NCBI GenBank assembly: GCA_022495995.1
Contig: JAFEMH010000525.1
Coordinates: forward strand, 604,501-668,500
Reading direction: 5' to 3'
Length of the DNA stretch: 64,000 nucleotides
Origin: Adenophora triphylla var. japonica
Taxonomy: Eukaryota; Streptophyta; Magnoliopsida; Asterales; Campanulaceae
Part shown: piece after piece, positions 16,950 through 57,408 of the stretch
How the letters are laid out: each line of letters opens with the position of its first letter
Numbering within the stretch: position 1 is the first letter of the stretch
Made by a program: the position numbers and the translations under genes
The notes under the pieces: generated by a model
Told to the model about the DNA's origin: nothing
What the model saw: the letters and a program-made list of their open reading frames with translations, nothing else
Databases searched by the model: none

Positions 16950-17047
16950 TGAAATTACCCGGGATCGCGCGCGGGGGGAGCGCGACGAGCGGTTATCCTT
17001 CGCAGGCTTGGGACCTTGCTTTCAGGAAGGAGAGGAATCGCCACGCG

Positions 17048-17230
17048 GTTTTGTATTTTGAGCCAAAACTTTCAAAATGGCTTTGAAATCATGTCATTTT
17101 GTATTATGAGCCCAAACTTTGGAAATGGCTTTGAAAACGTGTCGTTTTGTATTATGAGCCCAAACTTTGGAAATGGCTTTGAAAATGTGTCGTTTTGTAT
17201 TATGAGCCCAAACTTTGGAAATGGTTTTTA
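17048..17230. repeat. Short tandem repeat in element B LTR
   Basis: Four copies of a unit near 55 bp built on TGTATTATGAGCCCAAACTT and GGAAATGGCTTTGAAAA. The matching open frame on the plus strand is only the repeat being translated. Confidence 0.9.
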
Positions 17231-17394
17231 GGATCAGAGATTGTTAGGTTCGGAGGTCACGTTACATTTCGGGAAGAGTGTACGGAGGTCACCCGAAATG
17301 CCTCGTATGACGAGTCTTTCTACCTTTCTCGAAATTGTGTGCGCGTGTGTGTGCGTGTGTGTTGCATTTTTGAAAAGGGGGGCTTGAATGACAA

Positions 17395-18000
17395 GCTTAA
17401 TCTTGGTTTGAATGTCAGACGTTGATTTCAAAAAAGCGAGCGTTTGAATGACAAATGTCGGTTTTGAGATTTTTAGGAAAAGGGCGTGAGAGATAGGTTT
17501 AAATCTTTAGTTTGATTGTCAAATGTTGATTTTAAGGAAAAGAGCGTTTGAATGTCAAACGTCAATTTTTGAGTTGAAAATGAGCGTTTGGATGCCAAAC
17601 GTCACTTTTGCGCGTTTTGAAAAGGAGTTCGAGTGACGAACTCCGATTTTGAACCGGGCATTACATTGTTACCAATTTTATGAAAAAAGGCTTTAAATGA
17701 CATGCGATTGACAAGTCGTTTTGCGACTCGGACTTTGATAAATAAATACAATCCCAAACCAAACGGCTCGGACTGGTAAATGACAGTATTTAAAGTACGA
17801 TATCGACAGAATCAAACGATTCGGACAGTAAAGGTGGGATCGACAAGCCAAACGACTCAGAGTTGTAAATGTGCATAATTTAAATGACGGTATCGACGGA
17901 TCAAACGATTCGGATTTTATAAATGACTATCACGAACCAAACAGTTCGCACTGTAAAGTTGCGATCGACGGATCAAACGATCCGAACTGTAAATAACATA
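17395..18000. repeat. Dispersed short repeats in element B LTR
   Basis: Irregular repeats without a fixed period: TTTGAATG(A/T)CAAA(C/T)GTC between 17395 and 17640, then CAAACGA(C/T)TCGGA and ATCGAC(G/A)G between 17720 and 18000. They may be regulatory or simply slippage products. Confidence 0.6.
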
Positions 18001-18448
18001 AACGTAAAAAACGGGGTCGGAACGCCATTTTAAACCGAAATTACTTCTCTTACGGGAGAGAAGATGATTTTGGGGTAAAACGTATCGTACCCCGTAGACG
18101 GCGTTACGTCTACATTTCAATAATTTTGACCGAAACGATTATGGCGTTTGACACGTAAATCGAAGAGAAACGAGTGTTTAGAGAGAGAGAGAGAGTGTTA
18201 CCTATGGCTATGGGTTAACTCTTTGACTCGGTGGACGTATACGGGATATGGTTTGGTGTTTGGAAGGGTTTTTTTATTTTGTTTGGTTCGTGTTTGGTTG
18301 GAAAACGAGGTTTTCACGCAAATCGAGACAAAACGGGGCTCGGGAGGGGGTAGATCAGCCTAGGGCCGTGGGGTTTGTGGAGAGAGATTATCTTTTTTCC
18401 TTTAAATGTTTTGACAGCCCTTGTATTTATAGGGTGAAAATGCAGAAC

Positions 18449-18462
18449 AGTCCGGACGGACT
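18449..18462. promoter_or_regulatory. Element B dyad in LTR, beside the TATA box
   Basis: AGTCCGGACGGACT is a near-perfect GC-rich dyad. The minus-strand TATA box (TATAAATA, 18424-18431) lies 17 bp downstream in element orientation. The same family dyad recurs before the antisense PMD gene at 20299. Confidence 0.6.
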
Positions 18463-18959
18463 CTTATTCATTTTGGGGTGGTTTTTTGGTATTTTGGAAA
18501 GTGGGAGGACTTGTTGGCAATTATGGTTTTTCAAGAAAAATAGTCCGAAAAGACAGTCAATCAATTTCAGGGGGCATTTTGGTCTTTTCACCTTGAAATC
18601 TGATTAATGTTGATTGGTGGTCTTTGGCATGCGTGGCACGTGCCCCTGTGACTCACCTAGGCTAGGGTTTTTATCCCGTTATTCCCGGTTTTGTCCATTT
18701 TTTTAATAACTGTCCGAAAAATGTCCGAACCGCTCTCGAAAAGTGCCGGAAAGTGCGTTTTTCAAGGAAAGTCATACTTTTATGTGTGATAACATGTGTT
18801 GAGTATGCTTTGACGTCGGGATGCATGGGGCAGTCCCGGGATGTCTCGTTGGCTTGAGAATGGGAAGTTTAAGGGGTTCCGGTTTACCTGAAAAGAGCCA
18901 GTTAACGGATTCCGGTTAACTTTTAACGGATTTTGACGATTCGGATTTGGGTACTTACA

Positions 18960-19020
18960 GTATCTCCTCAGCGATATCACTTTCGAAGGAAGTGGGGTAG
19001 TTGAAAAAAGATAAGGATCC
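18960..19020 (-). other. Element B polypurine tract and adjoining hairpin
   Basis: On the minus strand GCTGAGGAGATAC ends at the LTR. Just upstream, CCCCACTTCCTTCGAAAGTG can fold into a short stem (CACTT with AAGTG). The same arrangement is found in C, D and F. Confidence 0.6.
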
Positions 19021-19060
19021 AAATCGGGGGATGCCTTACTTAGAAAGACCTGAGCAGTCA

Positions 19061-20298: not shown

Positions 20299-20310
20299 GT
20301 CCGGCCGGAC
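20299..20310. promoter_or_regulatory. Element B dyad upstream of antisense PMD gene
   Basis: GTCCGGCCGGAC is a perfect 12-bp palindrome 151 bp before the PMD ATG at 20461. It matches the LTR dyad at 18449 in its arms. An AT-rich stretch follows within 40 bp. Confidence 0.6.
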
Positions 20311-20460: not shown

Positions 20461-22265
20461 ATGGAAGCCAGATTAGGGCCACGGGGTCGGCATAGGAGGA
20501 CCGACGACGAGAGATCTAGGTTGAAGAGGACGGTGTGGACTACCGTTCTTCCCATGGATCCGACCGAGTTTTATCCGGTTCGGGACACGCACAAATCCAA
20601 GGAGGGGATAGCGAGGCGGGTAAGCATCTTCTAAATTCCGTTAATTTTCAGAATGTGCCTTCTTGAATGTTGGGAATTTGACTAGAATTGAGTTAGGGTT
20701 CTTAGTGCCCGAATTGGGGCTTTCGCCTTTGTGATTCACCTTTGTCGAAATTGACTATAGCTTAGTTCAATTGACGCTATGGGTAGACAACATAAAAATT
20801 TTGGTGGCAAAATTCCATGTCTATGGGTGTTTTCCAAAATTAAAGTATAATTCAGGACAGAGTAATTTTTGAAATATTTTTGAAATGCTTGAAATTTCAG
20901 ACTTGGACGGATTTTTCGAAATGTTTTGAAAGTTTTTGGACCGTTAAAACTTTGACTGGGACGAAAATATTTTTAGGCAAATGATCCGTTAACGGACAGA
21001 TTTTCGAAACTGAACCATTAATACTCCAACTGGGATGAAAATATTTTTAGGCAAATGAACCGTTGATGAACGGGTTTTTGAAACTGGACCGTTAATATTT
21101 CAACTGGGATGGAAATATTTTTAGGAAAATGAACAGTTGATGAACGGGTTTTTGAAAATGGACCGTTAATATTCCAACTGAATGGAAATATTTTTAGGCA
21201 AATGAACCGTTGATGAACGGTTTTTTGAAACTGGACCGTTAATATTCCAACTGGGATGGAAATATTTTTAGGAAAATGAACATTTGATGAACGGGTTTTT
21301 GAAACTGAACTATTAATATTCCATCTGGTATGGAAATATTTTTAGGCAAATGAACCGTTGATGAACGGGTTTTTGAAACTGAACCGTTAATATTCCAACT
21401 GGGATGGAGATATTTTTAGGCAAATGAAACGTATCCTTGTACTGACATATTTTCTGTGATTTTTGATATGTGTCTGTGTACGTTATCTCTTTAATAACAT
21501 ACTTTTGTCGTGTTCACCTGCAGGGGCGAGGGCCGATTGATGTACGTAACTTGAAGAGCAGGGGAGCCTTTGAGGTGGTCCGTGAGCTGTGGGAGATACT
21601 CCCATACAAGGCTTGGGATGGGGAGAGGATTCCACGACAGTTCGTCGTTGACTCCAGCCTGGCAGGATTCATTAGTGCGGTAGCCGTGGTGGCTTCGACG
21701 CAGAGGGCGAGGGTACTTCATGTTGTTCTGAGCGAGTACTGGTGGGATATGACCCACATGTTCCATTTTAGGTAGGGGGAGGCGACCGTGACTTCCACTG
21801 ATTTTGAAGCGATTATTGGGTTGCCATTCTGGGGCAACACTGTTGAGTGGGTGGATGGCTACACCAGGGAGCAGTTGTCAGAGCTGCTTGGCTTTGACAT
21901 TACCGATGCCAGGGGCCTGGGTATTCGGTAAGGGCCAATGGAGGCTCATTTGAGGAGGGGCATCGAGGAGTATTTGGTTGGCTCCGTGAGGATGACAGCA
22001 GAGCCCTTGGCTCGAGGGTTTTTGTGGTTCGCTTTATCAGCTGCCCTATTTCCCACTGCTGACATGGCATGTCACTTTGCTCGCTGGCTCTCTGACCCAC
22101 CTAGAGGCTGTGAGAGGGTTTTCTTGGGGAGAGGCCGGTCTGGCTGAGCTCTATCACGCCTTGGATAGGTTCTCTCGGGGAGAGGAGGCGTCTGTTGATT
22201 CCCCGCACTCGGTTGTCATTTGAGGGCATTGGTGGTTCTCGCAGGCGGCTGTTGATTCCCATTCT
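20461..22265 (+). pseudogene. Element B antisense PMD gene (truncated)
   Basis: Exon 1 (20461-20619, 53 codons) starts MEARLGPRGRHRRTDD. The intron 20620-21523 has GT and AG ends and contains a minisatellite. Exon 2 starts at 21524 with GRGPIDVRNLKSRGAFEVV. The PMD core is clear: VLHVVLSEYWWDMTHMFHF, then GEATVTSTDFEAIIGLPFWG, with a stop between the two at about 21772. Another stop follows LGIR near 21928. The trace ends with GRGLAELYHALDRFSRGEEAS near 22190, then joins directly to integrase sequence. The C-terminal half seen in C and F is missing. PMD proteins of the MAIN/MAIL1 type act in transcription and silencing in plants; the role of TE copies is unknown. Confidence 0.8.
20930..21430. 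repeat. Minisatellite inside the element B PMD intron
   Basis: Six to seven copies of a unit near 75 bp with the words AATATTTTTAGGCAAATGAAC, CGTTGATGAACGGGTTTTTG and ACCGTTAATATTCCAACTGG. The array makes up more than half of the intron. Confidence 0.92.
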
Positions 22266-23003: not shown

Positions 23004-24716
23004 AATTTAGGAACTTTTCCAAACCTTTCGAGGGGCGAAGGACTTGCTAGAATTAAAATTCCACATAGTCCTTCGCTGGAAAACACCTTCTAGAATGCCA
23101 CCTTGCATGGTTCTAGAAATAAGCTGAGTCACTAATGGATAAGACCGCACGGCTTCATTAGCTTGGGGTTACAGCCGCACGGCTTCATTAGCCATCACCA
23201 GACTGCCTATAAATAGAGGCCTCCTTTACCCATTTTTAGAAAGGAGAACTTTTGGTACTATTACTCTGCCAAAATACCTACACGAATTTCCAGAGAGCTG
23301 AGAGCAACCAAAATCACCTCCCCCTCTTCAAAACCCTTCTAAAGTTGGTCCTTCCTTAGGAAAACTTCAAAGAGATAGAGGAACACCACCATTGGTAACC
23401 TCTCCTCCCCTTTTCCTTAAAATATACTTGTCATTACTTGCTATATTGTTCTTTGCTTTATATATTTTCATCTACTTGATTGGTATTTGATATCTTGTTA
23501 TTAAAAATCACATCTTTAGTCATGTAGATCATAATATCCCCATTCCCCTATCATATGGGATCCATGGAAGATCCAACCCAAGGATGAACAATGAGACCTC
23601 AAATGGCTTGTTCTAGGGTGGATCTCTCACATGGTGATGTGAAAATAGCATCCTTTGCATATAAAAATGTCATCTTTTTCCATAAAATGTCATCTTTACT
23701 CATGAATTTCATTCCCCCTTCCCATAGACCTTGCTTACAAGGATTGTCCACCAAAAAGGTTCATAAAGTATATAGGAAAGCCATAAAGGTCCTCCCTTTT
23801 CATTCCTAGTCTTAGCTTGCATCATGTTCATTATATATGTTAGCATAAAAATGTCATCTTTAGCTTAAAATGCATTCCCCATGTCCCTCATGGTTGGATC
23901 ACTCTCCTAGGATTGCCTAGTGACCTTCATAAGGCACAAAAAGGCATAGGATGAGTATAATGATCCAATCTTTATACCCCTCCCTTAGTCCCCTTTGGTA
24001 CTTGAGGCATCTCTTGGAGCATAATGGTGTAAAGGTCCTATCTTTACATCATTTCCTCCACATAAAGATGCCATAGACGGACTCTCCTTTAGAAAAGGAT
24101 GAACTTGAGCCCCTACATCTCCGATCATCACTTGAGACGAGCATAAATGTCCCGACAAAGCTCAAATCGTCTCAAGATGTAGGATTGATGGGCAAAGGTC
24201 ATTCCTTTCTAAAGGGTCTCATACTTGGACTATTAAAAAAAGGTGTCCCGATATTGATCACATACGACCCAAGGTCTCATAATGATGATCATAAATCCAA
24301 GATGAGAACGGGATCAAAGTCCCTAACACATCAAAATCCAAGGAATCCCGAGCGATAACCAACTCATGGTTTATACGTCCGGAAGATACCTTGGCACATT
24401 CCCTCCTTTCCAAAAAACACATCCCACACACGAAAACACTAAGGCAAGCATGAAAATCGGATCTTGGAAGACTTGCTTCGGCAAGGCTCCTTGGGTGAAC
24501 GACGATCCGTTCTTCCCAAGGGGTAACTTAACCTCCGAACCCATGTCCTTTTTTTCAATGTTTTGAGGAAATCAAAATGGCGTGGCGACTCCGTTTTTTC
24601 AATTTAAACCGGATGTTTCCAAACCGATGTGAGGCGGTGATCCCCTTACACGAGAAATCGGTTCCAACAAAAAAATAAAAAATAGGAAAGCCGCGATCTT
24701 GGGCACCACATTCACA
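23004..24716 (+). repeat. Element D 5' LTR, lacking its first 78 bp
   Basis: 1713 bp alignable to the 3' LTR from its base 48575 onward and ending ACATTCACA. The TGTAAGTAC start is missing: element B integrase sequence runs directly into the LTR at a shared AATTT (23004-23008 and 48575-48579). This points to a small deletion with microhomology after insertion. TATA box at 23208-23215. Confidence 0.9.
23144..23215 (+). promoter_or_regulatory. Element D LTR dyad pair and TATA box
   Basis: Two copies of (A)(G/C)CCGCACGGCTTCATTAG, at 23144-23161 and 23173-23191, 29 bp apart. The second has perfect arms AGCCG and CGGCT. TATAAATA begins 23 bp after the second dyad core, the same gap as in element C. 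Confidence 0.65.
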
Positions 24717-24737: not shown

Positions 24738-25575
24738 GAATCAACCAAAAAAAGCTTTCATTTTTAAAATAAAAAAATATGATACTTGGTATATAGGTGA
24801 AAACCATTAAGCTTCCCGTTATCGCTTCCTAACACGAGTCTGGGATAAAATATGGTCTAACAATCCCACGTACCGGTATCTCTTTTCGAAAAAAAAGAAA
24901 AGCTTTTTTTTTAGTGGGTTAGCCTTCCGCCGCGGATCCGATCCTCATGTTTGCCTTCCTTTTTCTTGCATTGCATTGCATGCATCGTTGGTTCTTGCGA
25001 ATTGTGCATATTATGATACTGAACAGGAAAGCATTCTGGAGCTGGAAAAGGTGCCAAAAAGGCCGGGGAAACAACCTGCAAATGAAAGGAAATGGAACCT
25101 GGAAAATTGATTGATGTAGTCGTACGGCTTGATTCTCCTTGAATCCCAGCCGGGCGGCTTCATTAGGCAATTCCACCAGGACAAAAATTGAGGTTAATCT
25201 GGCAGCCTTGGCAGCTTGGGGCTATTCAGTTCCAAGGCTGACCGGGCTCCCAGAAAATTTACGTGCTTATTTGCTGCATTTTCCCCTGTCCCAAAAAATC
25301 ATTCCTTTAAAACACATTTCTGAAAATTTCTGTTTTAACACAAAAAGGAACATTTTTAGGAGGCCGCACACTATGTGCACCTTTATATCCTGTACACTTT
25401 GCACGCACGTCCCTTTAACCCGGGGTGGTTGTTCAGCTGCAGTCACGGACAGTATTACGATTCTCCCGGGTGGGCACGGAATCACCCCAAACTCCTCACG
25501 GCAGCCAGTGTCAACCAATGCACAGTCTGTGTCACACATTTTAAAACCATGACTTTTGGTTGGTTTTTTGTCTAG
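24738..25575 (+). other. Element D leader, first part, with dyad pair
   Basis: Untranslated leader. A third dyad pair lies at 25118-25166: GTCGTACGGCTTGATT followed by AGCCGGGCGGCTTCATTAG. No gag frame is recognisable here. The leader is cut at 25580 by element C. Confidence 0.65.
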
Positions 25576-25580: not shown

Positions 25581-25949
25581 TGAATGTGCGCTCGCCCGAA
25601 AATTTGTTTTTCGTGAAAATGAAGGAGTCGCCACGCCGTTTTAAGAGGAAACATTGAAAACCTTTTTTTAGAGAGAAAACATGAGTTCGGGGGTCAGGTT
25701 ACGTGTTGGGAAGAACCGAGAGTTCACCCAACACGCCTCGTCCATAGACGAGTCTTTCAATCAAACATCCAAATAAATCCAAAGTGTGTGCAAATATTGA
25801 TAATAAACAAAGTGTGGTAAAATGCATCTTATTAATTATGAAACGAGAATTACAAATTGTGAGCCCATTATTTAGGGAGGCCACATCCCTGATACAAATG
25901 ATCTAAAACAGATTACAAAGGAAAGAGGTCTCTGCAGATAGGTCATGTA

Positions 25950-26028
25950 TGTCGCATGACACGTCGCACCAGTAACCATATATGTCGCGTGACACAGGAT
26001 CACTTGGAGACGAAGGTGTCGCGTGACA
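25950..26028. promoter_or_regulatory. Element C dyads, distal LTR cluster
   Basis: TGTCGCATGACA (25950-25961), TGTCGCGTGACA (25983-25994) and TGTCGCGTGACA (26017-26028), spaced 33 and 34 bp apart. The same cluster is in the right LTR near 36550-36630. Confidence 0.62.
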
Positions 26029-26633
26029 TACATAAGCCATCTGCAGAAACTTAACAGGATGAACACAGAATCAACAGAAAGCTATACAGATCTAATTGAT
26101 TAGCTAAATTAAGAACGAAATGCAGAAACAACACCAAATCGACCCCGGGAGTGTGGATATGGGTAGATCCACACCCCTTGGGGTTCAAACACCAAGTTCA
26201 ATCAAATATTCAACAATAGAAGCTCAATTGAACGAATTATTCAAGTTAAACAGAGAGATTGCGATTGGGATTCAGTAATCCAGATAGCTAGGATCCGATC
26301 TTGAATCCAAACAGAAGTAATTGCTAGAATTATGAGAAATTGAGCAAGAGAGAGAGAGAAGAGGGAGGTTGGAGAATCGTTACCCTTGATGCTTCCACGA
26401 ATCCTGTATCTAGTCAGATACAGAACCCTTCAATTCGTCACTTCTGATCTGGAAGGATTGATGCAAAAGGGTCCAAGTGCTATGGCTTGAGAAAGGGGTT
26501 TGGATAGGAAGTAATTAGGTAGGTTAAAGGTAGGAGAGAGAGAGGGTTATGTTTGGGAGTTTCGTTACGGTGCAAATTTGGCAGAGTGACAGTAGGCTCA
26601 AGTTGGGATCCCTTTTCTGAGAGGGGGAGGGTC

Positions 26634-26717
26634 TTATTTATAGGCCTCAGTTGGTGACCTCAGTGTGTCGCACGACCTTACGCGTCCACTTTCCATGCCT
26701 CAAGCTGTCGCGTGACA
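26634..26717. promoter_or_regulatory. Element C dyad pair beside the LTR TATA box
   Basis: TGTCGCACGACC (26666-26677) and TGTCGCGTGACA (26706-26717). The minus-strand TATA box (TATAAATAAG, ending at 26642) lies 23 bp from the first, the same gap as in element D. The right LTR repeats this near 37267-37320. Confidence 0.65.
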
Positions 26718-26979
26718 CAAGGTGGTCCAACCGCTTTTGGCGCCAAAACCAGTTTCTGGAACATTCCGGGAAAATACCCAAAAGGTCCAACAGATTTTAT
26801 TCCCAAGAGGTCCTTTGGCATGAATAATGTACCAAAAGGTACTTCCTTCGCGGGAAACTCATGAAACGTTTCCGGAAGTCTCGGGATAGGCCGGGAATTT
26901 ACCAAAACGCCCCTTTAATGCAATTTTATCATTTAAAATGCACCTAAAAAAGGTTGCGAATTGGATTGGCGTACTTACA

Positions 26980-28264: not shown

Positions 28265-28305
28265 TGTCGCACGACCGTTTAAGGCCATTGAACAGTCTTT
28301 TAAAA
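28265..28305 (+). promoter_or_regulatory. Element C dyad and TATA-like box before antisense PMD
   Basis: TGTCGCACGACC (28265-28276) is identical to an LTR dyad. TTTTAAAA lies 21 bp on, at about 28298. The PMD ATG is at 28440, 163 bp downstream of the dyad. Confidence 0.58.
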
Positions 28306-28439: not shown

Positions 28440-30880
28440 ATGCCTCCTAGGCGTCGACCCACCAAGAATGCTCCGACCCAGGCTCAGTTAGCCGCACGGT
28501 GAAAGAATGCCTTGAGGAATCAGAGGCCTTTTGTTCCTCATACTGTTAGAGGAGACTTCTACCCGCATCTGAAAGAGCATACCTCGGCACCGGGGAATAA
28601 AACGAAGGTAATCTCTGTAACCCTCGCTTTTTGATGCAATGAGAAAAGTCGGATTTTTTTTTTCAGAAATTGATTGATTTTGCCTTCTCTGTTGGACTCA
28701 GAAAAAAAACTATTGCGTGCTCTGAGTTATCTAGCAATTGTAAATGAATGCTTAAAGTGCTCAAACCCTAGTTTTGCTTGGAATTGAAATATGCAATTGA
28801 TTTGACAAGTAAATTTGGGATATTCATAACTGCGCTGTGCTTACCTGCAGGAGCTACGCACTCGGGGTTCTCCAGAGGTCATTGGCCAATTGTGGGATTT
28901 GCTGCCAGGTAGTCAGGAGCTTGATCACTCGCCGAAAGGCTTAGTATAAGCTGCTGGGTTGGGGCAGTTTTTTGAGATGGCGAAGGCTGTTGGAGGCACA
29001 CAGAGGAGCATCGGGCTGGTAAAGGCGTTCATAGAATTTTGGTGGGAGACTACCCATTCTTTTCATTTCTGGGCGAGGCAACCATCACGCCGTATGATTT
29101 TGCTGTTATTACTGGCCTGCCCTTTACTGACGAGCCCTTGTATCTGGAGGAGCCTACTCTGATTGCTGACCCGCAGCCCCCCACTGAGGCTTACTATATG
29201 GAGCTGATCGGCTTTGTTCCCCAGGACAAGAAGGGGAATGGATATGAGCACGGGGACCTTCATAGCCAGATGGTTGAGTAGAGTACTGGTTTTCCAGCTG
29301 AGATGGCAGACACCGATGAGGACAGGCTGAGAGCTAGGAGGTTGGATAGGGCGTTTGTTTGGGTTGGCTTCTCAGATATGTTGTTTATCAATGCCACATC
29401 TACGGGTTTGCTTTCTTTGTTGGAGCTCCTGAGGGATTGGGCTAGTGTTGGATCGCTGTCTTGGGGAGAGGCCGGTTTGGCCGAGTTATATCTGGCTTTA
29501 GATGATATCAGTCGGGGGAAGGCTAAGTCCTTCAACTGCTGTCACTTGGCTTTTGAGGTATCTCTTGGTCTGATTCTCCTTCTTTTTTTTTAATACCGCT
29601 TCTTTCCGTCCCCTTTCTCTTTACCTGACTCTGTTCTGTCTCTTCTCTTCAGGCTTGGGCTTACGAGATCATTGGTTGTTATGCCTGGCGGGTAGGGGAG
29701 GCATATCCGGCTACCACATTTCCTGCTATGAAGCGTTGGGTGAAGGATGCAAGGCAGAAGATTCGGACAGCTGATACTAAAGGACGGATGACTGCTTCTC
29801 TGGCTGATACTTTGGTTTGTTTACGGGGGACTCCCGGGAGTTTGACTTTATTCCCTTGGGCTGGACGATATGCTGGGGTTCATCTGGAGCATGCCCTTCA
29901 TCTTACTGAGTGTCGCAAATTGTTGGTGGGTTTGTCTGGAGATGCATTGTATCTGGGTGAGCGGGTTTGTAGGCAGCATGGTCCCGGTAGTATGGCTAGA
30001 GTTCCATTTGATCCTCCTGCTGAGATGTGGTTTCCTCAGAAGCTGGATGACGTGGCTGCTTTGATCCAGGGAGAGCCTGCTTTTAATTATACTGAGAATG
30101 ATGGGAATTATGACGCTTATGTGGCTACGAGGCTGAGGTCGCCGCAGGTTGCTCCGAGACATGATAATCAGGCTGCGGGACCATCTGTTGGACATGTTGC
30201 GGATGCTCCCCTACCACCTCCTTTCGTTGATTTTTAGGATGGGGACCACATGAGGCGGGCCACTCTTGATACTAGCCGGATTTATCCATACTTTCATCTT
30301 CCTGAGGGAGCTCGATCCGTAAATGGCTTTAAACTGTTTACATCTTTTGATCCTTTTGTTCTGATATGATTTCTGATTCTCTTTTGTCTGCTTGTACCAG
30401 GTATCAACTGACATCTACTGGGGTTTTGCTCACCATTATACCGGGGCTATGGACATGATTGATCAGTTGGTGAGGAGCAATCGATATTGGCGGGAGCGAT
30501 GCTTGGCCCAGAGTTATGATAGTTCTGATGATGATGGCGATTCTATGCCCAGCTTGCCAGATAGGAAGAGGACCCGGACTGATATGTCTGTTAGGGATAC
30601 ACATTGGCCCAGAACTAAGACCGCGCCTCGTCGTCCTCCTACTCCTTCCAGCTCTGATATTGATATCTCAGGGGATCCTCATGAGCTTGAGACTGTTGTC
30701 ATTCCTGCTACCCACGATATTTTCCGTGACGACCCTATTGTTTATCATGATGCTGCTGCTGGCCCGGATCCTGAGGAGGGTGATGCAGATGGAGAGGACA
30801 GCGAGGAGACTGAAGATGATGATGCTAGCAGCTCCGCCGAAGATGATACTTACATTTCCGGAGACGATGGTTCAGAATAG
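28440..30880 (+). pseudogene. Element C antisense PMD gene, four exons
   Basis: Start MPPRRRPTKNAPTQ at 28440. Introns with GT and AG ends: 28608-28850, 29558-29652 and 30319-30400. The PMD core is in exon 2: GLVKAFIEFWWETTHSFHF, then GEATITPYDFAVITGLPFT, ELIGFVPQDKK, WVGFSDMLFINATSTGLLSLLELL and LSWGEAGLAELYLALDDISRG. Exon 3 opens AWAYEIIGCYAWRVGEAYPAT and carries GRYAGVHLEHALHL and LSGDALYLGERVCRQHGPG. Exon 4 is DNA-binding-like only in being basic (PDRKRTRTD), then very acidic to the end at 30880. Breaks: TGA at 28500 (from CGA), one at about 28948, a frame break near 29070, TAG at 29279 and TAG at 30235. Otherwise it parallels the intact F gene. Confidence 0.85.
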
Positions 30881-45328: not shown

Positions 45329-45380
45329 CGGCCGCACGGCTTCATTTGCCTCAAGACCTGGCCGGACGGCTTCTTTTGCT
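45329..45380. promoter_or_regulatory. Element D dyad pair between PMD and DUF7745 genes
   Basis: GGCCGCACGGCTTCATTTGC (45330) and GGCCGGACGGCTTCTTTTGC (45360), 30 bp apart. It lies about 140 bp upstream of the DUF7745-like ATG, as the pair in F does for its gene. Confidence 0.6.
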
Positions 45381-45389: not shown

Positions 45390-46773
45390 AAAAAATCAGC
45401 AGCAGCTCTTGCTGCTGCCCAAGTGGAATTCTCAGCCAATCTGGCCTCACCCCAAGAGACCACCCTAACTTCATCTAGATTCACCAAAGAGTCAAGCAGG
45501 CAAAGCATAGCCAGCGTCCCAGAATTCACAAAAAATGGTGACCGACAGCATCAACCACAAGAAAGCTCTCGCGAGCTGGTGGGCAGTCACCTCATTGGCG
45601 GAAAACCCCTGCATGCACTCCAGGACCGCCACCTCCACATTCCTCGTCTCCATCCCGAGCCCCTTAGGACGGAGGTCAAACCCAACCAGAGCTCTAAACT
45701 CCTCCGTAGTAATATGATCCCTCTAGGTTACAGGCCTCCCAGTAAACTGCAAACCCGTGATAGAAGTAAAGTCGGCTGGAGTCACCGTGTTCTCTCCCCA
45801 GCTGAGATGAAACCTGTGGGTGGTATCCCACCAAAACTCTGAGAGGGCCTGGACCAGCCCCTTACTCTTAGAGGTCACATGAATGCCTCTGCGGATAGCG
45901 TCAATGAACAAATCAAGGCCAGTAGCCTGAACAAGCTGCTTGGGGTTTACCCCATCCTTCTCGAAGCTGGGCATCCTGTCCCATAACTTCACCGCCACCT
46001 CAGAAGGTCCCCTCGACTTGCTCTCCTGTAGGAAAACACAACAAAAACGTGTCAATCCTTCATCTCATCTCAAAAGAATGCATATATTCAAAATGTGCAC
46101 ATATTTTCACAGAAAAGCATTCATAAGAGATTTCTAGCATCCTTTGCCTAGAAAACGTGTCCATCATTTGAAACACGTCATGTCGAGCACATTGCTCTCC
46201 TAAGTACAAAATCCCAATTTTCACAAAATTCCTTGCACATAAGCATTAATTTTTTTCAAAATGGCATGCATGAATCCTTTTCATCATCCAAAATCCTGTT
46301 TTCTCATTCATGATCAAGAATTGACCTAGTTCTAGCACATGCAAGAACTCCGTCGCATTTTAGACATTATTTTTCTTACTTTATCTTCAAAAGTGGGTCA
46401 TTCTCATTATTTTTTCAAATAAATTGCACATGCATGTTCATTTATCTCCTTAGCCTCATAGGTTAATCATCAAGCTCCTAAAATCATCAACAAAAACCAT
46501 AGGAAAATTTGAAAAATTCCTAAAAATCGGGTCAAGCACTAACTCAATCAAAATTCAATCAAAATTGCCAAAATCAAGCAAATCAAGAATGCTTACCCCA
46601 ATAGATTGAGGTTTTATAGATTTGTGCTCTCCCCTATCGGGATAAAGCTCAGATGGAGGTGTGTTGAAGTTATACTTACGTTCTGTTCAAATGAGCTCCC
46701 TCCTCCTCCTCCTAGCGGCTTCTGATATGTTCCTCCGTGCTTGCCTAGGTACTATGTTCCCTTCCGGATCCAT
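45390..46773 (-). pseudogene. Element D antisense PMD gene (two exons, truncated)
   Basis: Exon 1 (46773-46680) begins MDPEGNIVPRQARRNIS, with a TGA four codons from its donor (GTAAGT at 46679). The intron runs to the acceptor at 46026. Exon 2 starts ESKSRGPSEVAVKLWDRM and holds the core GLVQALSEFWWDTTHRFHL and GENTVTPADFTSITGLQFTG. A TAG follows at 45723, then FDLRPKGLGMETRNVEV, LARAFLWLMLSVTIF and a remnant of the SWGEARLAE block. The trace then dissolves into the dyad pair, so the C-terminal third seen in F is deleted. The two visible nonsense codons fit C-to-T change. Confidence 0.78.
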
Positions 46774-46905: not shown

Positions 46906-46945
46906 AGCCGTACGGCTTCTTTGTCCTCCACCTCATGCTGGGCGG
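46906..46945. promoter_or_regulatory. Element D dyad pair upstream of antisense PMD
   Basis: AGCCGTACGGCT (46906-46917) is a perfect 12-bp palindrome, and GCTGGGCGGCCTCATT follows near 46934. They are 133 bp upstream of the ATG on the minus strand. An AT-rich TTTATTTTTA lies at 46891-46900. Confidence 0.62.
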
Positions 46946-47156
46946 CCTCATTCGCTCTAAGCTGAATTTACACTTTTGCCCCTGGACTTTCCACTTAGGC
47001 ATACAATTCCCGTTATTTCTTAACCAGAATAACGCTATTTCCAAAGGATATCCGTCATCTCTAATGAAAATAAACTTTCCTCCCGAGTCGCCTCCGTTAC
47101 TTCCGTTATAACGGAATGATGCTAGGTGACATCCTCCGAATTGTCAAAACCCTAAA

Positions 47157-48496: not shown

Positions 48497-50305
48497 TGTA
48501 AGTACCCAAATCTGGCTCATGCCTTCCGGTTAAGTTTCCCAGCAATTCCCCGAACTTTCCTATGGTTCAGGGGCAATTTGGGAACTTTTCCAAACCATTC
48601 GAGGGGTGAAGGACATGCTAGAAATTAAAATTCCACGTAATCCTTCGTTGGAAAACACCTTCTAGAATGCCTCCTTGCATGATTCTAGAAATAAGCTGAG
48701 TCACTAATGGATAAGACCGTACGGCTTCATTAGCTTGGGGTTACAGCCGCACGGCTTCATTAGCCATCACCAGAATGCCTATAAATAGAGGCCTCATCTA
48801 CCCATTTTTAGAAAGGAGAACTTTTGGTACTATTACTCTGCCCAAATACCTACACGAATTTCCAGAGAGCTGAGAGCAACCAAAATCACCTCCCCCCTCT
48901 TCAAAACCCTTCAAAAGTTGGTTCTTCAAAAGTTGGTTCTTCCTTAGGAAAACTTCAAGGAGATAGAGGAACACCACCATTAGTAACCTCTCCTCCCCTT
49001 TTCCTTAAAATATACTTGTCATTACTTGCTATATTGTTCTTTGCTTTATATATTGTCATCTACTTGCTTGGTATTTGATATCTTGTCATTAAAAATCACA
49101 TCTTTAGTCATTTAGATCATAATATCCCCATTCCCCTATCACATGGGATCCATGGAAGATCCAACCCAAGGATGAACAATGAGACCTCAAATGGCTTGTT
49201 CTAGGGTGGATCTCTCACATGGTGATGTGAAAATAGCATCCTTTGCATATAAAAATGTCATCTTTTTCCATAAAAATGTCATCTTTACTCATGAATGTCA
49301 TTCCCCCTTCCCATAGACCTTTCTTCCAAGGATTGTCCACCTAAAAGGTTCATAAAGGATATAGGAAAGCCATAAAGGTCCTCCCTTTTCATTCCTAGTC
49401 TTAGCTTGCATCATTTTCATTACATATGTTAGCATAAAAATGTCATCTTTAGCTTAAAATGCATTCCCCATGTCCCTCATGGTTGGATCACTCTCCAAGG
49501 ATTGCCTAGTGACCTTCAAAAGGTACAAAAAGGCATAGGATGAGTATAAAGATCCAATCTTTATACCCCTTCCTTACTCCCCTTTGGTACTTGAGGCATC
49601 TCTTGGAGCGTAATGGTGTAAAGGTCCTATCTTTACATCATTTCCTCCACATAAAGATGCCATAGACGGAATCTCCTTTAGAAAAGGATGAACTTGAGCC
49701 CCTACATCTCCAATCATCACTTGAGACGAGCATAAATGTCGCGACAAAGCTCAAATTGTCTCAAGATGTAGGATTGATGGGCAAAGGTCATTCCTTTTTA
49801 AAGAGTCTCATACTTGAACTATAAAAAAAAGGTGTCCCGATATTGATCACGTACGACCCAAGGTTTCATAATGATGATCATAAGTCCAAGATGAGAATGG
49901 GATCAAAGTCCCTAACACATCAAAATCCAAGGAATCCCGAGTGATAACCAACTCATGGTTTATACGTCCGGAAGATACCTTGGCACATTCCCTCCTTTCC
50001 AAAAAACACATCCCACACACGAAAACAATAAGGCAAGCATGAAAATCGGATCTTAGAAGACTTGATTCGGCAAGGCTCCTTGGGTGAACGACGATCCATT
50101 CTTCCCAAGGGGTAACTTAACCTCCGGACCCAAATCCTTTTTTTCAAAGTTTTGAGGAAATCCAAATGGCATGGTGACTCCGTTTTTTCAATTTAAACCG
50201 AATGTTTCCAAACCGATGTGAGACGGTGATCCCCTTACACGAGAAAGCGGTTCCAACAAAAAAATAAAAAATAGGAAAGCCGCGATCTTGGGCACCACAT
50301 TCACA
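48497..50305 (+). repeat. Element D 3' LTR
   Basis: 1809 bp, from TGTAAGTACCC to ACATTCACA. The dyad pair lies at 48716-48760, the TATA box at 48779-48786. After it, element B RNase H resumes directly, so the right boundary is precise. Confidence 0.95.
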
Positions 50306-50696
50306 ACTGGTAGATTTGATTGTACCAGGGTTCGTCGATCGGTTCATGTTCAACTTCGATCTCACAGCAATAAGCAAGTGTTTCCCGTCTGCCTATTCTG
50401 AGGGGTTTTATTGATTTTCCTTCGGGAATTTCGACAAGAGATGCTAGGGTGGCCAGGGCATCTGCGAAGCCGTTCCTGTCTCTTGGCAAGTAGTGGAAAG
50501 AGATGTCCTTGAACTGAGCAATGAGCTCCTCCATGTACGTGTGGTACTTCTGGAGGCCAGAATCTAACGTCTTCCATTTGTTGGACACTTGATTGATGAT
50601 CAACGCTGAGTCTCCGTACACTTCCAGTTCTGAAATGTTGCATTCAAGAGCGGCCTCTAGGCCAGCTGCGCAAGCTTCATACTCTGTGTAGCGTTG
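50306..50696 (-). pseudogene. Element B second RNase H (right part of element B)
   Basis: Minus-strand RNase H fragment cut on both sides. It starts at the F junction near 50696 with NNATQSM-type sequence (a two-base insertion shifts TEYEA), then VYGDSALIINQVSNKWKT, FHYLPRDRNGFADALATLA and WYNQIYQL at the D junction. The next residues (NSFTNEDG) are found at 23003, on the other side of D. This shows that B is one element and that D and F are separate insertions in it. The first acid of RNase H lies beyond F, outside the window. Confidence 0.92.
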
Positions 50697-51666
50697 TGAG
50701 AAGAATTTTATCTTTTTAAGTCGCCACCTATATTATTCATTTGGAAAATATAGAAAAACCATTTTGAAAGAGATTTGGGTTCGGGGCTTAGGTTATGGAA
50801 TGGGTAGGTCAAGGAGCATCCATTCCACCCAATCCGGAGATTGGTCTTGCTAAAGAAAAGAGAGGTTTTCAAAAACGAAGAAGAAAAAGATTTTAAACAA
50901 TAAAAGAACCATTTAACAGGGTTAAACGGAATGTAGGATCGATTGCTTCGAGACCGTCTCCATGATTTGGAGAGGCTCTAGGCCGATCCTAGATTCAATA
51001 GATTTATACCACTCTAACAATCAATTAGAAAGGGATTTAGGGGTTTTTACCTTGCGTGAGGTGATTTAGGCAGAGTTTCGACTCAAGTTTAGAATTGACT
51101 CTCGATACGGACAGAGCTTCGCCTCAATCCTTGACTTGGGTCTTGATGTTTGTTTATCAACAATGTTGACAAACAAACTGTGAGGTGAGTTTTAGGGTGA
51201 TTTTGTAGGAACCTTTCAGGGAAAGAAACCAACAAAATATGTGTGTGTTGTGAAAATTTGTCGTCTTCTTGATCCTTGGAAGTCACCAAGTATTTATAGG
51301 GTTTGGATAGGTATAGGTGGAGATGTAAAACCCTTTCAGAAGGTTCTAGACCCCAAACTCTATTGGTTGGCCGGATGGATAAAATCTTATCCCGGAAAGA
51401 GGTTGAAATCGACGAGAAAACTGCCTTCTGCATGCTGCAGAGGGAGGATATCTCGCGCGAGACACGCCATCTCGCGGCGAGATATTGCTCCTGTGGACAA
51501 TCTTGTCCTTTCCTCGTTATCTCATATGCAGTTTATTCGCAAACTAACGATAGTTAGTCAAAACTTAACGAAACATGATGAAATGGTGGATTTCTACTTC
51601 TTGACTCAAAGCAAGACTTAGAGTGGTATAAATATGACCCGATGTGTTCAGAATGGGGTGTCTACA
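50697..51666 (-). repeat. Element F 3' LTR
   Basis: About 970 bp. The right end on the plus strand is GGTGTCTACA; the left end is TGAGAAGAATTT or two bases earlier, because CACA is ambiguous. TATA box on the minus strand at 51290-51297. Confidence 0.83.
51449..51486. promoter_or_regulatory. Element F dyad pair in LTR
   Basis: TATCTCGCGCGAGACA followed by ATCTCGCGGCGAGATA, 20 bp apart. It lies about 150 bp upstream of the TATA box, farther than in B, C and D. Confidence 0.62.
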
Positions 51667-52615: not shown

Positions 52616-52670
52616 ATCTCACGGCGAGATAAGGTATACCGCGTGGGACTTCTTCTGTCGGGCATATAAA
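52616..52670 (+). promoter_or_regulatory. Promoter of element F PMD gene: dyad and TATA box
   Basis: ATCTCACGGCGAGAT (52616-52630, arms ATCTC/GAGAT) with TATAAA at 52665-52670 and the ATG at 52818. The dyad arms are those of the LTR motif. Confidence 0.65.
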
Positions 52671-52817: not shown

Positions 52818-55079
52818 ATGGCTCAAGAACAAAGGAATCTGATTTTGGGGAGCTATTTGCTAGGGAAGGATTATCCCCGCGATGATCTCACCTTCGATAG
52901 GCACGCGCATATCTCCACCGCTGTTCGGGAGGGTTTGGTAAGAGCTTCTTTCTCAACTCTTGATTCTTGTATTGCATTGAGTTTGAACTCCCTTTCCCTT
53001 GAATTCAAATTCCATCAATGGCTTTTCTTTTTGTCTATGCTTAGAACTAGGTTCTTTCTTGCATGCTCTGATTTTTATGCGTTTCTTTTGGATGATTGTT
53101 GTTGCATTGTGTGCGTATGGGCCTCCTACACATCATGGATTGTAGGAGAGGTTGATTCGGATCACGAATGGCATCCTTGGGAAAGCTTTTCTTGTACGCA
53201 CGCCAAGTGTTCGATGAAATGTCCCAATGAAAATTTTCTTCTATTCCATTGATTTTCTGACATGGAATGATTTCTAATGTTGCCCTTTTTGTTTTTCTTC
53301 TGTTTTGCAGTCATATAGGCCGACGAAGAATTGCCGAGGGAGCCCAAAAATGGCTAGAGCGGTATGGGACAAGATCAAGGACCTTGATGGCGTTCGGGAT
53401 AGGGTGGCCCAAACGGGGCTATTGACTTTTATAGATAATCTTCGGGGAAAAAGGCGGACTCCCCAAGTTCTTCAGGCGATCCGAGAGAGGTGGTGGGATA
53501 CTACCCACACCGTTCATTTGCACTTCGGGGAAGCGACTATGACTCCGACTGATTTTCTTGCTATCACGCGGTTAGAATTCATTGGTGATCCCCTGTCGAA
53601 GACTTTGGGTTATAAGCCTGCGGGTCCAGCCGTGTGGAGGCAGCTGATCGGTTTCATCCCTAACAAGGTTAAGGAATTTGCTGCTGAGTTGACACCCCTC
53701 CGGCGTCAGATTGAGGACTATGCTGAGAAGCCGAATGCAGTTACTGATCGATTGGTGAGGGTTGCCCTCTGGTATATCCTTTCTGAGACCATCTTTGCGA
53801 ACCATTCTTCTACGGCTCGTCTTTCTCTGTTGGGTTTGTTGGTGAATTTGGATGAGGTGAGCGGATATGATTGGGCCTCAGCGGGGCTGGCCTTCTGCTA
53901 CCACGCCATGGACGAGGCGTGCAGGAACACCAAGGATTCCCTATCAGGGTATTCTTATGCCTGGGAGGTATTATCTTCGTTCTGTTTCTGTTCTTTGTCT
54001 GTATACTTTGTCTGTATTCCCTACTAAATCCGTTCTGTTTTCTTGTGCAGATATGGGGCTATACTGCCCTTGGGCTGTACAGGTTTGAGTTGGAGAGCCG
54101 GACCCCTTTGTTCCCGGATATCAGGAGGTGGAGCCACCCCAATCGGAGCGTTGATGAGGAGGAGAACCAGGATTGGACCCTGACAGTCGCGAAGGCGCGG
54201 ACCATGCTGGACGCTTTTGAGTATGAGAGGCTGGGCCTTTATCCATGGACCCTGTTGGAGCCTGAGGTGCATCGTGCTTGGGATGCTACTGGGATGCAGA
54301 GGATGCTGGCATCTTTGGAGGGAGATACGATGTACCTTGGTGAGCGGGTCTTCCCACAGCATGACCGGGGTAGACTACCACATATGGCGCTGGTGGATCC
54401 GCCGAGGGCGATGTATCCCACCCACTCCATTCCAGATGACGATTATGCTAGTCTTCTGGTGGGTGATGTGGCGACGGCTTGTGTTATCCCCAGGGCCTCT
54501 TATGCGGAGTTCTTGCCTCGATTGATGGGTCCCCTCCTGGTGGGGGATAGGCGATCGCATGCTCGTGGCTCCGCCTCTGCTTCTACCTCAGGTTCATTAG
54601 CCCCTAGCACTTCTTCCCAGTCTGCTGGTTCTCTGCCTTTCGCCCCAGACTTCGGTCCTCTGAGCTATAGATATATGATGGGGAGCATGCCAATGGTGGG
54701 CCACATCCCGACTCTGGATCATATTCCTGAGGGTTACCGCCTCCCGCCAGATGTCTCATCGGTATGTTTCTGTTTGTATTATCTCTCGTATTCGTCCATA
54801 TAAGTGTATATGTCAGACTTCATCCGAGCATTTCTTTTCTTTGGTTGTCAGGTCACCATGTCTGCGGCCGATTATAACCGTGGGGCGACCAAGATGGCGG
54901 GACTGACGGCCCTAGTGTCGGACCTGTCCGAGAGGCTGTTCCACAAGGCTTCTTTGGCGGCCTTGACAGTGGCCTCGGCGGTGACCCGTACTTGCGGAGC
55001 CAAGAGGTCGAGGAGGGATGGTAGCCCCCGTAGTGGTGATGGCGGAGGTGTCGGCGGCTCGAGCGACTTGATGGCGTGA
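52818..55079 (+). CDS. Element F antisense PMD protein, four exons, intact
   Basis: Exons 52818-52937, 53311-53967, 54051-54761 and 54852-55079 give 571 codons without a stop; all introns are phase 0 with GT and AG ends (52938-53310, 53968-54050, 54762-54851). The start MAQEQRNLILG follows a dyad and TATA box. Exon 2 has the PMD core: VLQAIRERWWDTTHTVHLHF, GEATMTPTDFLAITRLEF, QLIGFIPNKVK, VRVALWYILSETIF and YDWASAGLAFCYHAMDEA. Exon 3 has WGYTALGLYRFELE, LYPWTLLEPEVHRA and LEGDTMYLGERVFPQHDRG, then a serine-rich linker; exon 4 ends basic and glycine-rich. Plant PMD proteins such as MAIN and MAIL1 are nuclear and affect transcription and TE silencing. What a TE-borne copy does is unknown. Confidence 0.88.
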
Positions 55080-55404
55080 TCCCCTCCCTTTCTCTCCATT
55101 TGATTTCTGATGATTTGTACATATTGGCCGTGTGGGCCCAAACAATTTTTTTCTTTTCTTTGGTACCTGTTAGAAACAAGTAGGTAGCACAAAACAATGG
55201 TTTTCTTAACCCCTATTCCTAGGTCTAATTAGTTAGTAAATTAACTTTCTCGACTTTCCATGTTTTTGGGAATGGAATGGCCGTCAGGCCACAATTTTGA
55301 GCTTGATCTTGGTGTTTTACTGCATGTTATGAACTGTGCATGCAGGTTTTTCGAGACTTGCTTCGTCAAGTCGGGGCAGAAGTATTGCTGTTTTGCCGTA
55401 GCAA
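55080..55404 (+). other. Element F PMD 3' region
   Basis: 3' untranslated region of the PMD gene. No further reading frame is convincing. It ends at the next dyad pair. Confidence 0.6.
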
Positions 55405-55500
55405 TATCTCGCGCGAGATAAGGTGTCTCGCACGAGACACGCTACCCAGGCAGAGATCTCTTCCTTTTTCGAATAGGATTTTGTCAGTTTTCCCTATAAA
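55405..55500 (+). promoter_or_regulatory. Promoter of element F DUF7745-like gene: dyad pair and TATA box
   Basis: TATCTCGCGCGAGATA (55405-55420) is a perfect 16-bp palindrome. GTGTCTCGCACGAGACAC (55423-55440) has perfect 8-bp arms. TATAAA lies at 55495-55500 and the ATG at 55601. Confidence 0.68.
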
Positions 55501-55600
55501 ATCAACCTGTAGTCCGGCCAGATACCTCATTCTAGCCTTTCAAACTCTAGAGATATTCTGTTAGGGTGAAACTCTTGACTTTTCTTCAACCCTACGATCC

Positions 55601-57097
55601 ATGGCTTCCAAGGAGATTGCCCCAACGTCCATGATTGTCGATGATTTTTCTCTGTCGTCTGAAGTGATTGAATCTTTCAAGCAAGCATCAAGAGATTTTG
55701 TGAGGTCGTTTTGAAACCGATCTCGCAATAGGTTTATTGCAGAATTTGGATTCAGAATCCTTTTTACCTTGAAGAACCTCCAACCGGATTGGAATCTCTT
55801 GCAGGGTGCTGCTCGTTTTTGGGATCCCTCTATTCATCTTTTCAATTTTTCTTTGAATGAGATGGTGCCTACCTTGGAGGAATTTGCCATTATCTTGGAT
55901 ATGCCTTTGACTGGTGAGATTGCTGTTCCTAAGTACAACAGGAATCATTCGGAGGCTTTGAATGAATTATTAGGGATCCCCCTTGATACTTGCTATGAGT
56001 TGGTTCACCGCAAGTGGGTTGATTGCTCTTCTTTTCCAGAACGCTTCAGCGGTGATTCGGATGATGACATTTTTCATGTCTACAAGCGGAACTTTCTGGC
56101 CCTTTCTCTTTTCGGAGATATTCTGTTTACATGTAGGGATGGCTTGGTTGACTCCCAACTGGTGGAAATTGTTCTGCAGGCTAGAAAACGTTCTAGGAAC
56201 ATTATTCCGCTAATCTTGGGTGAGACCCTGAATGGTCTTGATGAGCTGCATAGGACCGGTGCCATGACTCAAGGGAGTCCTCTTCTATTTACTATTTAGC
56301 TTAGGGAGCATCTCAAGCTGGTAGGCCTCCCATTAGAATATTCCCCTTTCACATATCATACGCGAAAGTTATTGATCAAGGATCTTTCAGCGGATGAATG
56401 GGCTGAGTTGATTGCGAAGACCGAAATGGCTGACGTTCTTTGGTGTCCGCCTTATTGGAGGTTGAACAAGTATGTTGCCAATACCAAGGGCTTTGACAGG
56501 GTTGTTCTTCCGGGTTTGCGAGATTCCTCCTTCTATTTTCCCAAGCGGGTGCTTCGTCAGTTTGGTCAGTCGCAGGACACTTATCTTTTCGAAGGAGCTT
56601 CTCGTGATGTGTCTTACATTGGTGTAGAGTTTGCGCAGGCACTAGCTCAAGCATGGGGTGAAGGAACCAGTCGGGACCGCTGGTCGAACCTTCGGACCTT
56701 TAATGCAAGTATTTTCTTATCTGATAGATACTTGGATTGGTTTCTTCATACCGGTCACCCTAGCACAGAGAAGATTGATGATTTGCGGCTTTCACTGCTA
56801 GGGGATTCTTTTGTAGCTAGCAGTATTTTGCGAAGGAGCGAGGCTCAGTCCGATCTTGCTAACGTGCGAACCGATCCAACTCAGGATTTTCTCGATGGGG
56901 ATTGGTACGAGAAGCGAGGCAAAGGGATGCCAGGAAAGACGCAAGCTTTAGATAGGCCCAATGTCTTCAAGAGGCTTTCGGAGTCTGTCTTTGATCGCCT
57001 CGAGGGATGTTCTGCTTTGAGGGGCTCAAAGCGCAGGAAGGATCGAGAAGACGGTGGAGATCATGTCCGCCGGCCTACCAAGTCAATGAAAGGCTAG
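55601..57097 (+). pseudogene. Element F antisense DUF7745-like gene, two nonsense codons
   Basis: One frame of 498 codons from MASKEIAPTSMIVDD to PTKSMKG, without introns. Stops: TGA at 55712 (codon 38) and TAG at 56297. They stand where CGA and CAG would fit, so both need a single C-to-T change. The N-terminal half holds the family pattern (LKNLQPDWNLLQGAARFWDP, FSLNEMVPTLEEFAIIL, PLTGEIAVPKY), then FLALSLFGDILFT and RNIIPLILGETLNGLDELHR. The second half is tryptophan-rich (VLWCPPYWRLNKYV, FYFPKRVLRQFGQSQ), and the end is basic (RGSKRRKDRED). Its 3' end points at the pol 3' end. The domain name rests on my memory of plant repeat proteins and is less certain than PMD. Function unknown. Confidence 0.75.
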
Positions 57098-57285
57098 ATC
57101 TTTAGGAGTACCAAGAGATTGCTTTGATAGATCAATAGCTTTTTATCTTATTAGTATTTTTTTCAAAGTTGTTAGCTTAGCGAATTAGTCGTTGTGGTTA
57201 GGATTTCCCTTTTGTCATCAATAAAAATGCATTCGATTATTAAAAGGACAAAAGTAGATTTATTTATTTGATTAGACCGAACCCG

Positions 57286-57348
57286 GAGGCTGCCTACGTT
57301 CCTCTTTTACATCAATTAAATAAGAGGCTCAGGTCTAATGTAGTTCAT
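57286..57348 (+). other. Conserved CTACG/CGTAG box, pol side, element F
   Basis: GGCTGCCTACGTTCCTCTTTT, loop, AAGAGGCTCAGGTC and ATGTAGTTC. Inner stem CCTCTT/AAGAGG; outer stem CTACG with TGTAG, one G-U pair. Confidence 0.72.
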
Positions 57349-57394
57349 TTTTTGAGAGAAAAATGGACAAAATATGGCTTCCTATCGAAGGGTA

Positions 57395-57408
57395 ATCTCG
57401 CGCGAGAT
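57395..57408. promoter_or_regulatory. Element F dyad between DUF7745 and pol ends
   Basis: ATCTCGCGCGAGAT, a perfect 14-bp palindrome. No promoter-like sequence is evident next to it; a C and T homopolymer run follows. Confidence 0.62.

Follow-up and report, generated by a model that had tools for sequence, protein, structure and literature searches.

Within the 64-kb stretch of the Adenophora triphylla var. japonica genome analysed here (the window; positions 604,501 to 668,500 of contig JAFEMH010000525.1), four nested retrotransposons, designated B, C, D and F, carry short palindromic dyads that recur within each element both in the promoter of the long terminal repeat (LTR) and in the promoters of genes encoded on the antisense strand. 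The dyads are placed in the manner of cis-regulatory elements, as an initial annotation of this stretch had proposed, and we consider them very probably to be regulatory sites shared within, and specific to, each family. The same annotation held that the dyads differ fully between the families, which is incorrect. A common scaffold, XYZ-CG-NN-CG-rc(XYZ) (rc, reverse complement), was found. Family specificity resides in its 3-bp arms alone, which read GTC for B, TGT for C, AGC for D and TCT for F, and members of one family vary in the centre (GA, GC, CA, TA, GG and CG were observed). Each dyad can be read as two inverted N3-CG half-sites around a free dinucleotide, which would be the form expected of a site for a homodimer.

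Ten perfect scaffold dyads are present in the window, all of them located in B, D or F and equipped with the arms of their own family, against an expectation of 0.99 in 200 Markov sequences (maximum 4). Local dinucleotide shuffles yielded an expectation of 1.15–1.27, and none of 300 reached ten with either bin size. When the 16 possible core dinucleotides were compared, CG stood about 9 standard deviations above expectation and GG about 3 (10 vs 3.8), the other 14 remaining within 2. Eight of the ten perfect dyads fall in LTR or antisense promoters, which occupy 4.6% of the window (the sites not being independent). An unbiased scan for CpG-rich dyads recovered 22 in 64 kb, and half of them (11/22) were sites of these families.

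The dyads appeared upstream of the LTR TATA boxes and of the antisense start codons at the places first named for them (Table 1). In seven promoters, namely those of the plant-mobile-domain (PMD) genes of B, C, D and F, of the DUF7745-like genes of D and F, and of a possible second antisense gene in C, the nearest dyad lies 133–188 bp from the ATG; this second gene of C is decayed, and its ATG (31423) was picked after the dyad had been seen. The distance from the dyad edge to the LTR TATA is 19 bp in B, 24 bp in C, 24 bp in D and 153 bp in F, so that the agreement of positions claimed between the families holds for the ATG distances and for the TATA distances of B, C and D, and fails for the LTR of F. 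As to the letters initially given for the dyads, the sites exist, but the centre varies in the B and D LTR sites, among others, and the dyad before the F PMD gene (52616) is not a perfect one. The dyad pairs are likewise genuine: those of F (LTR and DUF7745-like gene) are spaced by 19 bp, those of D by 30 bp at each of four locations (one partner degenerate) with differing spacers, and those of C mostly by 33–34 bp (40 bp in the LTR promoter). Most of these spacings would be near whole helical turns. The common CG-NN-CG scaffold, the dyads in the 5' untranslated regions (UTRs) of C and D and the family-specific pair spacing are new here.

Family matches, counted with a free centre, at most one mismatch and both LTR copies included, lie in their own element in 26 of 29 cases (B 2/2, C 13/14, D 7/9, F 4/4), in agreement with the family specificity first proposed. 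Three matches stray: one of C type at 14998, towards the left of the window, and two of D type, of which 29202 falls in C and 51746 in F. We also applied a strict promoter test, in which 11-mers shared among promoters set by TATA or ATG alone were compared with 200 sets of random intervals from the same element; sites within one element are not independent. None of the 200 controls reached the count for D at one or two mismatches, nor that for F at two mismatches, and for B the count was reached by 6/200 (one mismatch) and 3/200 (two mismatches). D and F hold up by themselves, and B and C are weaker alone. A looser control (B 2/200; C, D and F 0/200) took in the 5' UTR and second-C-gene regions post hoc, and the strict version is preferred. 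The information content of the C dyad is 1.69 vs 0.35 and 0.50 in its left and right flanks (null 0.26), that is, the dyad is conserved and the flanks are near background. Another element of the window, A (4088–13900), has a different primer-binding site (PBS), no perfect scaffold dyad and no PMD match (tblastn with the F protein). Its near-perfect 23-bp palindrome GGGCGTTAGCTTAGCTAACGCCC (7464–7486) was considered as a fifth case and rejected, as no copy is present in the A LTR.

The dyads may represent binding sites, one type per family, that serve the LTR promoter together with the element's own antisense genes. Where they lie, their inverted half-sites, their family specificity and the spacing of the pairs are consistent with sites of a dimeric protein. 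A homodimer would bind the inverted N3-CG half-sites; binding, dimer and autoregulation are all things that we infer. Paired dyads (19 or 30–34 bp) would be about two or three helical turns apart, and two dimers could sit on one face of the helix. Because like sites at the LTR and at the antisense genes change in step across the families, the regulator may coevolve with them and be encoded by the element itself, for which we regard the chances as about even. The binder would then be a product of the antisense strand, most probably PMD, as this is the gene common to all four elements, or else its DUF7745-like relative; that PMD itself binds the dyads appears to us somewhat short of an even chance. 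Such a protein would control the promoter of the genomic RNA as well as, via the like site preceding the gene that encodes it, its own expression. Between sister families, the contacts to CG-NN-CG would remain constant and the three arm bases would shift with a fast-diverging protein. The outcome could be activation, repression or removal of silencing, an anti-silencing effect like that of the VANC proteins of Arabidopsis being on the unlikely side, and with two CpGs in each site, binding could respond to CG methylation. It is attractive to speculate on a self-addressed code, in which a dimeric Ogre PMD reads N3-CG-NN-CG-N3', the arms diversify, and the protein activates both the LTR and its own promoter or protects them from silencing, that is, an LTR-retrotransposon counterpart of VANC made from the MAIN/MAIL1 domain; we offer this complete form tentatively, as possible rather than probable.

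An antisense PMD gene was found in all four elements (the Pfam cut-offs being 34.9 bits for PMD, PF10536, and 26 bits for DUF7745, PF24924). Stops or frameshifts interrupt the PMD copies of B, C and D as well as both DUF7745-like copies. The tested fragment of the D DUF7745-like gene gave no Pfam match, its assignment being by 27% identity to the F protein. The first long piece of the F DUF7745-like gene scores on both profiles (47.2 bits to DUF7745 and 26 bits, under the cut-off, to PMD), and the two proteins are thus probably related. The pol products of F and D share 65% identity over 935 residues, and those of F and B 67% and 50% in two longer pieces. The F PMD is 27–35% identical to those of B, C and D in pieces of at least 60 residues (44–52% in two short pieces), and the DUF7745-like proteins of F and D 27%. 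Judged by these identities, the antisense proteins diverge more than pol where both are comparable (C has no pol to compare), and the fast evolution initially ascribed to them is borne out. Among the families, four in number only, no two have the same arms, and divergence between the PMD proteins is strong. Among the 7993–7997 candidates sharing most words, which were the ones scored in the protein searches, PMD matched one short protein and one Camellia protein, and the DUF7745-like protein matched none. A search of solved structures gave one chance-level match (E 0.91). Related loci were confirmed neither in viral contigs (pol and PMD queries) nor in prokaryote contigs (pol query).

TnpA of maize Spm/En is an element protein that acts on short repeats in its own promoter and can activate the methylated promoter; it differs from the present case in belonging to a DNA transposon, in being an unrelated protein and in using subterminal repeats. 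The following comparisons draw on excerpts of the papers cited. In the VANDAL elements of Arabidopsis, which are Mutator-like elements (MULEs), VANC proteins act on short family-specific motifs accumulating in tandem arrays (PMC5735166, PMC10398659), those of VANC21 and VANC6 being YAGTATTAY and AGTTGTCC/AGTTGTAC, respectively (PMC5735166). The likeness is that each family has a short motif of its own within the non-coding DNA of the element, related families having different ones, and by this analogy the dyad system may work like VANC. Nevertheless, VANDALs belong to the DNA transposons, tandem arrays of their motifs are frequent and the motifs quoted are not CG palindromes, whereas the elements studied here are LTR retrotransposons with single, paired or tripled dyads near promoters and with PMD or a DUF7745-like protein as the candidate protein. 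By coordinates, no family dyad lies inside the tandem arrays of the window, and we do not file the dyads as a VANC system because the motifs do not accumulate in such arrays. The 135-bp tandem array of D (37611–38011) contains two CG-CA-CG sites (37732 and 37866) with arms unlike those of the D dyad.

Antisense accessory genes are also a feature of Grande, RIRE2 and Retand; in Grande and Retand, such genes are known to have promoters of their own and products that are nuclear or predicted to bind DNA. For instance, transcription of gene23 of Grande starts from a promoter of its own and yields a nuclear product (PMC7264820), and for TRP28 proteins DNA binding is predicted and a role as regulators has been proposed (PMC11963269). 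These genes, however, encode TRP28 or other domains, and the excerpts mention no motif that LTR and antisense promoters have in common, whereas PMD, DUF7745 and a candidate target site occur here. PMD has been reported in 57% of Ogre elements (PMC6317226), the PMD-A clades are encoded by Gypsy elements only, and anti-silencing has been speculated for MULE-captured PMD (PMC5418596). The present elements resemble PMD-bearing Ogre elements in the antisense PMD and, in C and D, in the tRNA-Arg-type PBS; no function or target of a retrotransposon PMD is described in these excerpts. Expression of a set of genes, most of which have a promoter motif in common, requires the host PMD proteins MAIN and MAIL1 (PMC7156037), and the MAIN/MAIL1/PP7L complex, with PMD proteins tied to promoters that contain a common short motif, would provide a weak parallel to the dyads. 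Among the matches listed from the openly licensed literature, as excerpted, there was no report of such dyads or of a motif common to LTR and antisense promoters, and no paper on DUF7745 was found in that literature.

Several observations weigh against the dyads being shared regulatory sites that a protein of the element recognises. The clearest counter-example is the D-type site GGCCGCACGGCTTC in F (51742–51759), of which 14 bases are identical to a D site. This site adjoins the F 3' LTR and TTCCTACGTATC, a sequence present also near the LTRs of B and C, and is either a cross-family site or a coincidence. In the strict test, C is weak, with 14/200 controls reaching the count at one mismatch (all 12 shared 11-mers being the dyad) and 83/200 at two; F has no 11-mer common to its three promoters at one mismatch, because its PMD site is imperfect; and the evidence in B consists of two sites only. 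Besides, C has no perfect scaffold dyad, its sites being TGTCGCACGAC[CT], TGTCGCGTGACA or near variants, at least one base off. The LTR dyad of F departs from those of B, C and D in its distance from the TATA, and the F-type dyad at 57395 has no promoter beside it and no apparent promoter role. The survival of CpGs, which had been taken as a sign of use, does not distinguish the dyads: in two LTR pairs, dyad CpGs were kept in 4/4 cases vs 25/37 elsewhere (D) and in 8/9 vs 39/43 (C), which is not significantly above other CpGs (Fisher p 0.30 for D, 1.0 for C, 0.45 pooled). With regard to the binder, AlphaFold2 gave no usable fold for exon 2 of the F PMD from a four-row alignment (mean predicted local distance difference test score, pLDDT, 39). 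In the excerpts on the host PMD complex, contact with chromatin is not established, and the DOWN motif of the MORC1 promoter, CATGCAGTTT, is neither a CG dyad nor a palindrome (PMC9899485).

The main rival explanation is that host transcription factors, either a different factor or CG-NN-CG-preferring members of one host family, were recruited by each retrotransposon family for both promoters. LTRs commonly recruit host factors, and a site just upstream of the TATA suits any activator. Some half-sites also recall plant motifs, AGCCG presumably resembling the GCC box and TGTCG the auxin response element. Nevertheless, a single host factor predicts one motif instead of four kinds of arms on a common scaffold, and it would be simpler to assume one coevolving protein of the element than four independent recruitments that each involve the LTR as well as the antisense promoters; we hold the host-factor account to be possible but rather unlikely.

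Alternatively, the antisense promoters may be copied pieces of the LTR promoter within each element, in which case the dyads would be leftovers and no common regulator would be needed now. Some sequence is indeed shared beyond the dyads, namely the tail TTCATT in D (information 1.31 in the next 10 bases, null 0.32), flanking bases on the corresponding side in F (1.27, null 0.67) and, by eye, spacer text common to the 5' UTR and LTR pairs of C. The C flanks are nonetheless near background overall around conserved dyads, the D pairs keep their 30-bp spacing despite diverged spacers, and a difference in arms between families at equivalent positions is not what inert copying would lead one to expect. 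We regard copying as improbable. Still less credible, in our judgement, is that the palindromes work as nucleic-acid structure (RNA hairpins, recombination or replication signals). The dyads are inverted repeats, genomic RNA would carry the internal sites as well as those of the LTR at its 3' end, and some sites lie downstream of the LTR TATA (25950–26028) or far from promoters (57395); on the other hand, placement tracks TATA boxes and start codons on both strands, short arms with a centre of 0–2 bases would make poor hairpins, and no Rfam match was found in the window. Chance or a compositional artefact picked by eye is largely excluded by the local shuffles, the random-interval controls for D and (at two mismatches) F and the distribution of the family matches, even though the strict tests for B and C alone are modest and the sites in a family are not independent.

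According to the excerpts of the literature, Ogre elements often contain PMD, and genic relatives of this domain take part in plant gene silencing; no function is described there for the PMD encoded by retrotransposons. If the dyads are targets of PMD, the question of function reduces to a direct binding assay, and the four families would provide four natural specificity variants of one domain, with a constant scaffold and changing arms. They would also give insight into how selfish elements avoid mixing up their switches, and possibly provide a tool for promoter addressing. The two CpGs per site could couple binding directly to CG methylation.

The window as a whole consists of nested plant Ty3/gypsy elements, C being inside D, D interrupting B, and F lying to the right. 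The PBS TGGCGACTCCGCTGGGG adjoins the 5' LTR in C and D (the 5' ends of B and F are outside the window), and we take it to be of the tRNA-Arg type. Ogre elements possess a tRNA-Arg PBS (PMC9289625). Domain matches in the pol of F, the only one so analysed, delineated two RNase H regions, RT_RNaseH/RT_RNaseH_2 and, downstream, RVT_3/RNase_H. Together with the antisense PMD in all four, the PBS of C and D and the dual RNase H of F fit an assignment of B, C, D and F to Ogre-type Ty3 elements (Tat lineage). Element C (25581–37580), the LTRs of which are 98% alike and which is flanked by a 5-bp target duplication (TCCGT), gave no pol match by tblastn with the F pol. It keeps its LTRs, the PBS, the antisense PMD and a minus-strand frame of 436 aa, in which two gag-like zinc-knuckle motifs were noticed by eye (Pfam gave no match), and looks like a non-autonomous Ogre with the antisense gene retained.

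Table 1. Positions of the LTRs, genes and dyads of elements B, C, D and F in the window (TSD, target-site duplication).
Feature	Position	Strand	Remarks
B LTR (3')	16950..18959	-	left border estimated; right border at TACTTACA; minus-strand TATA ~18431
B-type dyad GTCCGGACGGAC	18450..18461	.	B LTR, 19 bp upstream of TATA
B-type dyad GTCCGGCCGGAC	20299..20310	.	151 bp upstream of B PMD ATG
B antisense PMD	20461..22200	+	ATG 20461; interrupted by stops; PMD fragment 36.9 bits
B pol pieces	22312-23001 + 50304-50759	-	split by D
D 5' LTR	23004..24716	+	TATA 23208
D-type pair GACCGCACGGCT, AGCCGCACGGCT	23143..23184	.	D 5' LTR; spacing 30 bp; 24 bp upstream of TATA
D-type pair	25118..25159 (25118/25148)	.	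D 5' UTR; spacing 30 bp
C LTR (3')	25581..26979	-	TG...CA ends; TSD TCCGT; minus-strand TATA 26642
Three C-type dyads	25950..26028	.	C 3' LTR, downstream of TATA; spacing 33 and 34 bp
C-type dyads TGTCGCACGACC, TGTCGCGTGACA	26666..26717	.	C LTR; 24 and 64 bp upstream of TATA
C-type dyad TGTCGCACGACC	28265..28276	.	164 bp upstream of C PMD ATG
C antisense PMD	28440..30234	+	ATG 28440; broken; PMD fragment 31.5 bits, just under cut-off 34.9
C-type pair	31235..31279	.	spacing 33 bp; upstream of possible second C gene (ATG 31423)
C-type pair	35870..35914 (35870/35903)	.	C 5' UTR; spacing 33 bp; first has 2 mismatches
C LTR (5')	36182..37580	-	tRNA-Arg-like PBS adjoining
C-type dyads in C 5' LTR	36551, 36584, 36618, 37268, 37308		37268 has 2 mismatches
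D pol	39500..43043	+	
D antisense DUF7745-like	43832..45193	-	ATG 45193; broken; assigned via similarity to F copy
D-type pair	45330..45371	.	spacing 30 bp; 137 bp upstream of D DUF7745-like ATG
D antisense PMD	45434..46773	-	ATG 46773; broken; PMD fragment 56.4 bits
D-type dyad AGCCGTACGGCT and degenerate partner	46906..46947	.	partner 30 bp away (3 mismatches); 133 bp upstream of D PMD ATG
D 3' LTR	48497..50305	+	dyad pair 48715/48745; TATA 48780
F LTR (3')	50694..51666	-	left border estimated; minus-strand TATA 51298
F-type pair ATCTCGCGCGAGAC / ATCTCGCGGCGAGAT	51450..51483	.	F LTR; 19 bp apart; 153 bp upstream of TATA
Imperfect F-type dyad ATCTCACGGCGAGAT	52616..52630	.	35 bp upstream of TATA 52665; 188 bp upstream of F PMD ATG
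F antisense PMD	52818..55079	+	four exons, splice sites by eye; intact 571-aa frame; PMD 78.7 bits
F-type pair	55406..55437	.	spacing 19 bp; 164 bp upstream of F DUF7745-like ATG; TATA 55495
F antisense DUF7745-like	55601..57097	+	two in-frame stops; DUF7745 47.2 bits (first long piece), 20.0 (second)
Perfect F-type dyad ATCTCGCGCGAGAT	57395..57408	.	between 3' ends of pol and DUF7745-like gene; C/T run follows
F pol and upstream frame	57774..61666	-	

Besides the dyads, we noticed that the D 5' LTR lacks the first ~78 bp that the D 3' LTR has, and that the B LTR (16950–18959) shows a CpG observed/expected ratio of 1.40 vs 0.63 for the window, which is unusual in a plant repeat. The interval from the antisense PMD gene to the 3' LTR contains a tandem array in D (47154–47912, 51-bp unit), B (19154–19673, 30-bp unit) and F (52070–52380, 41-bp unit).

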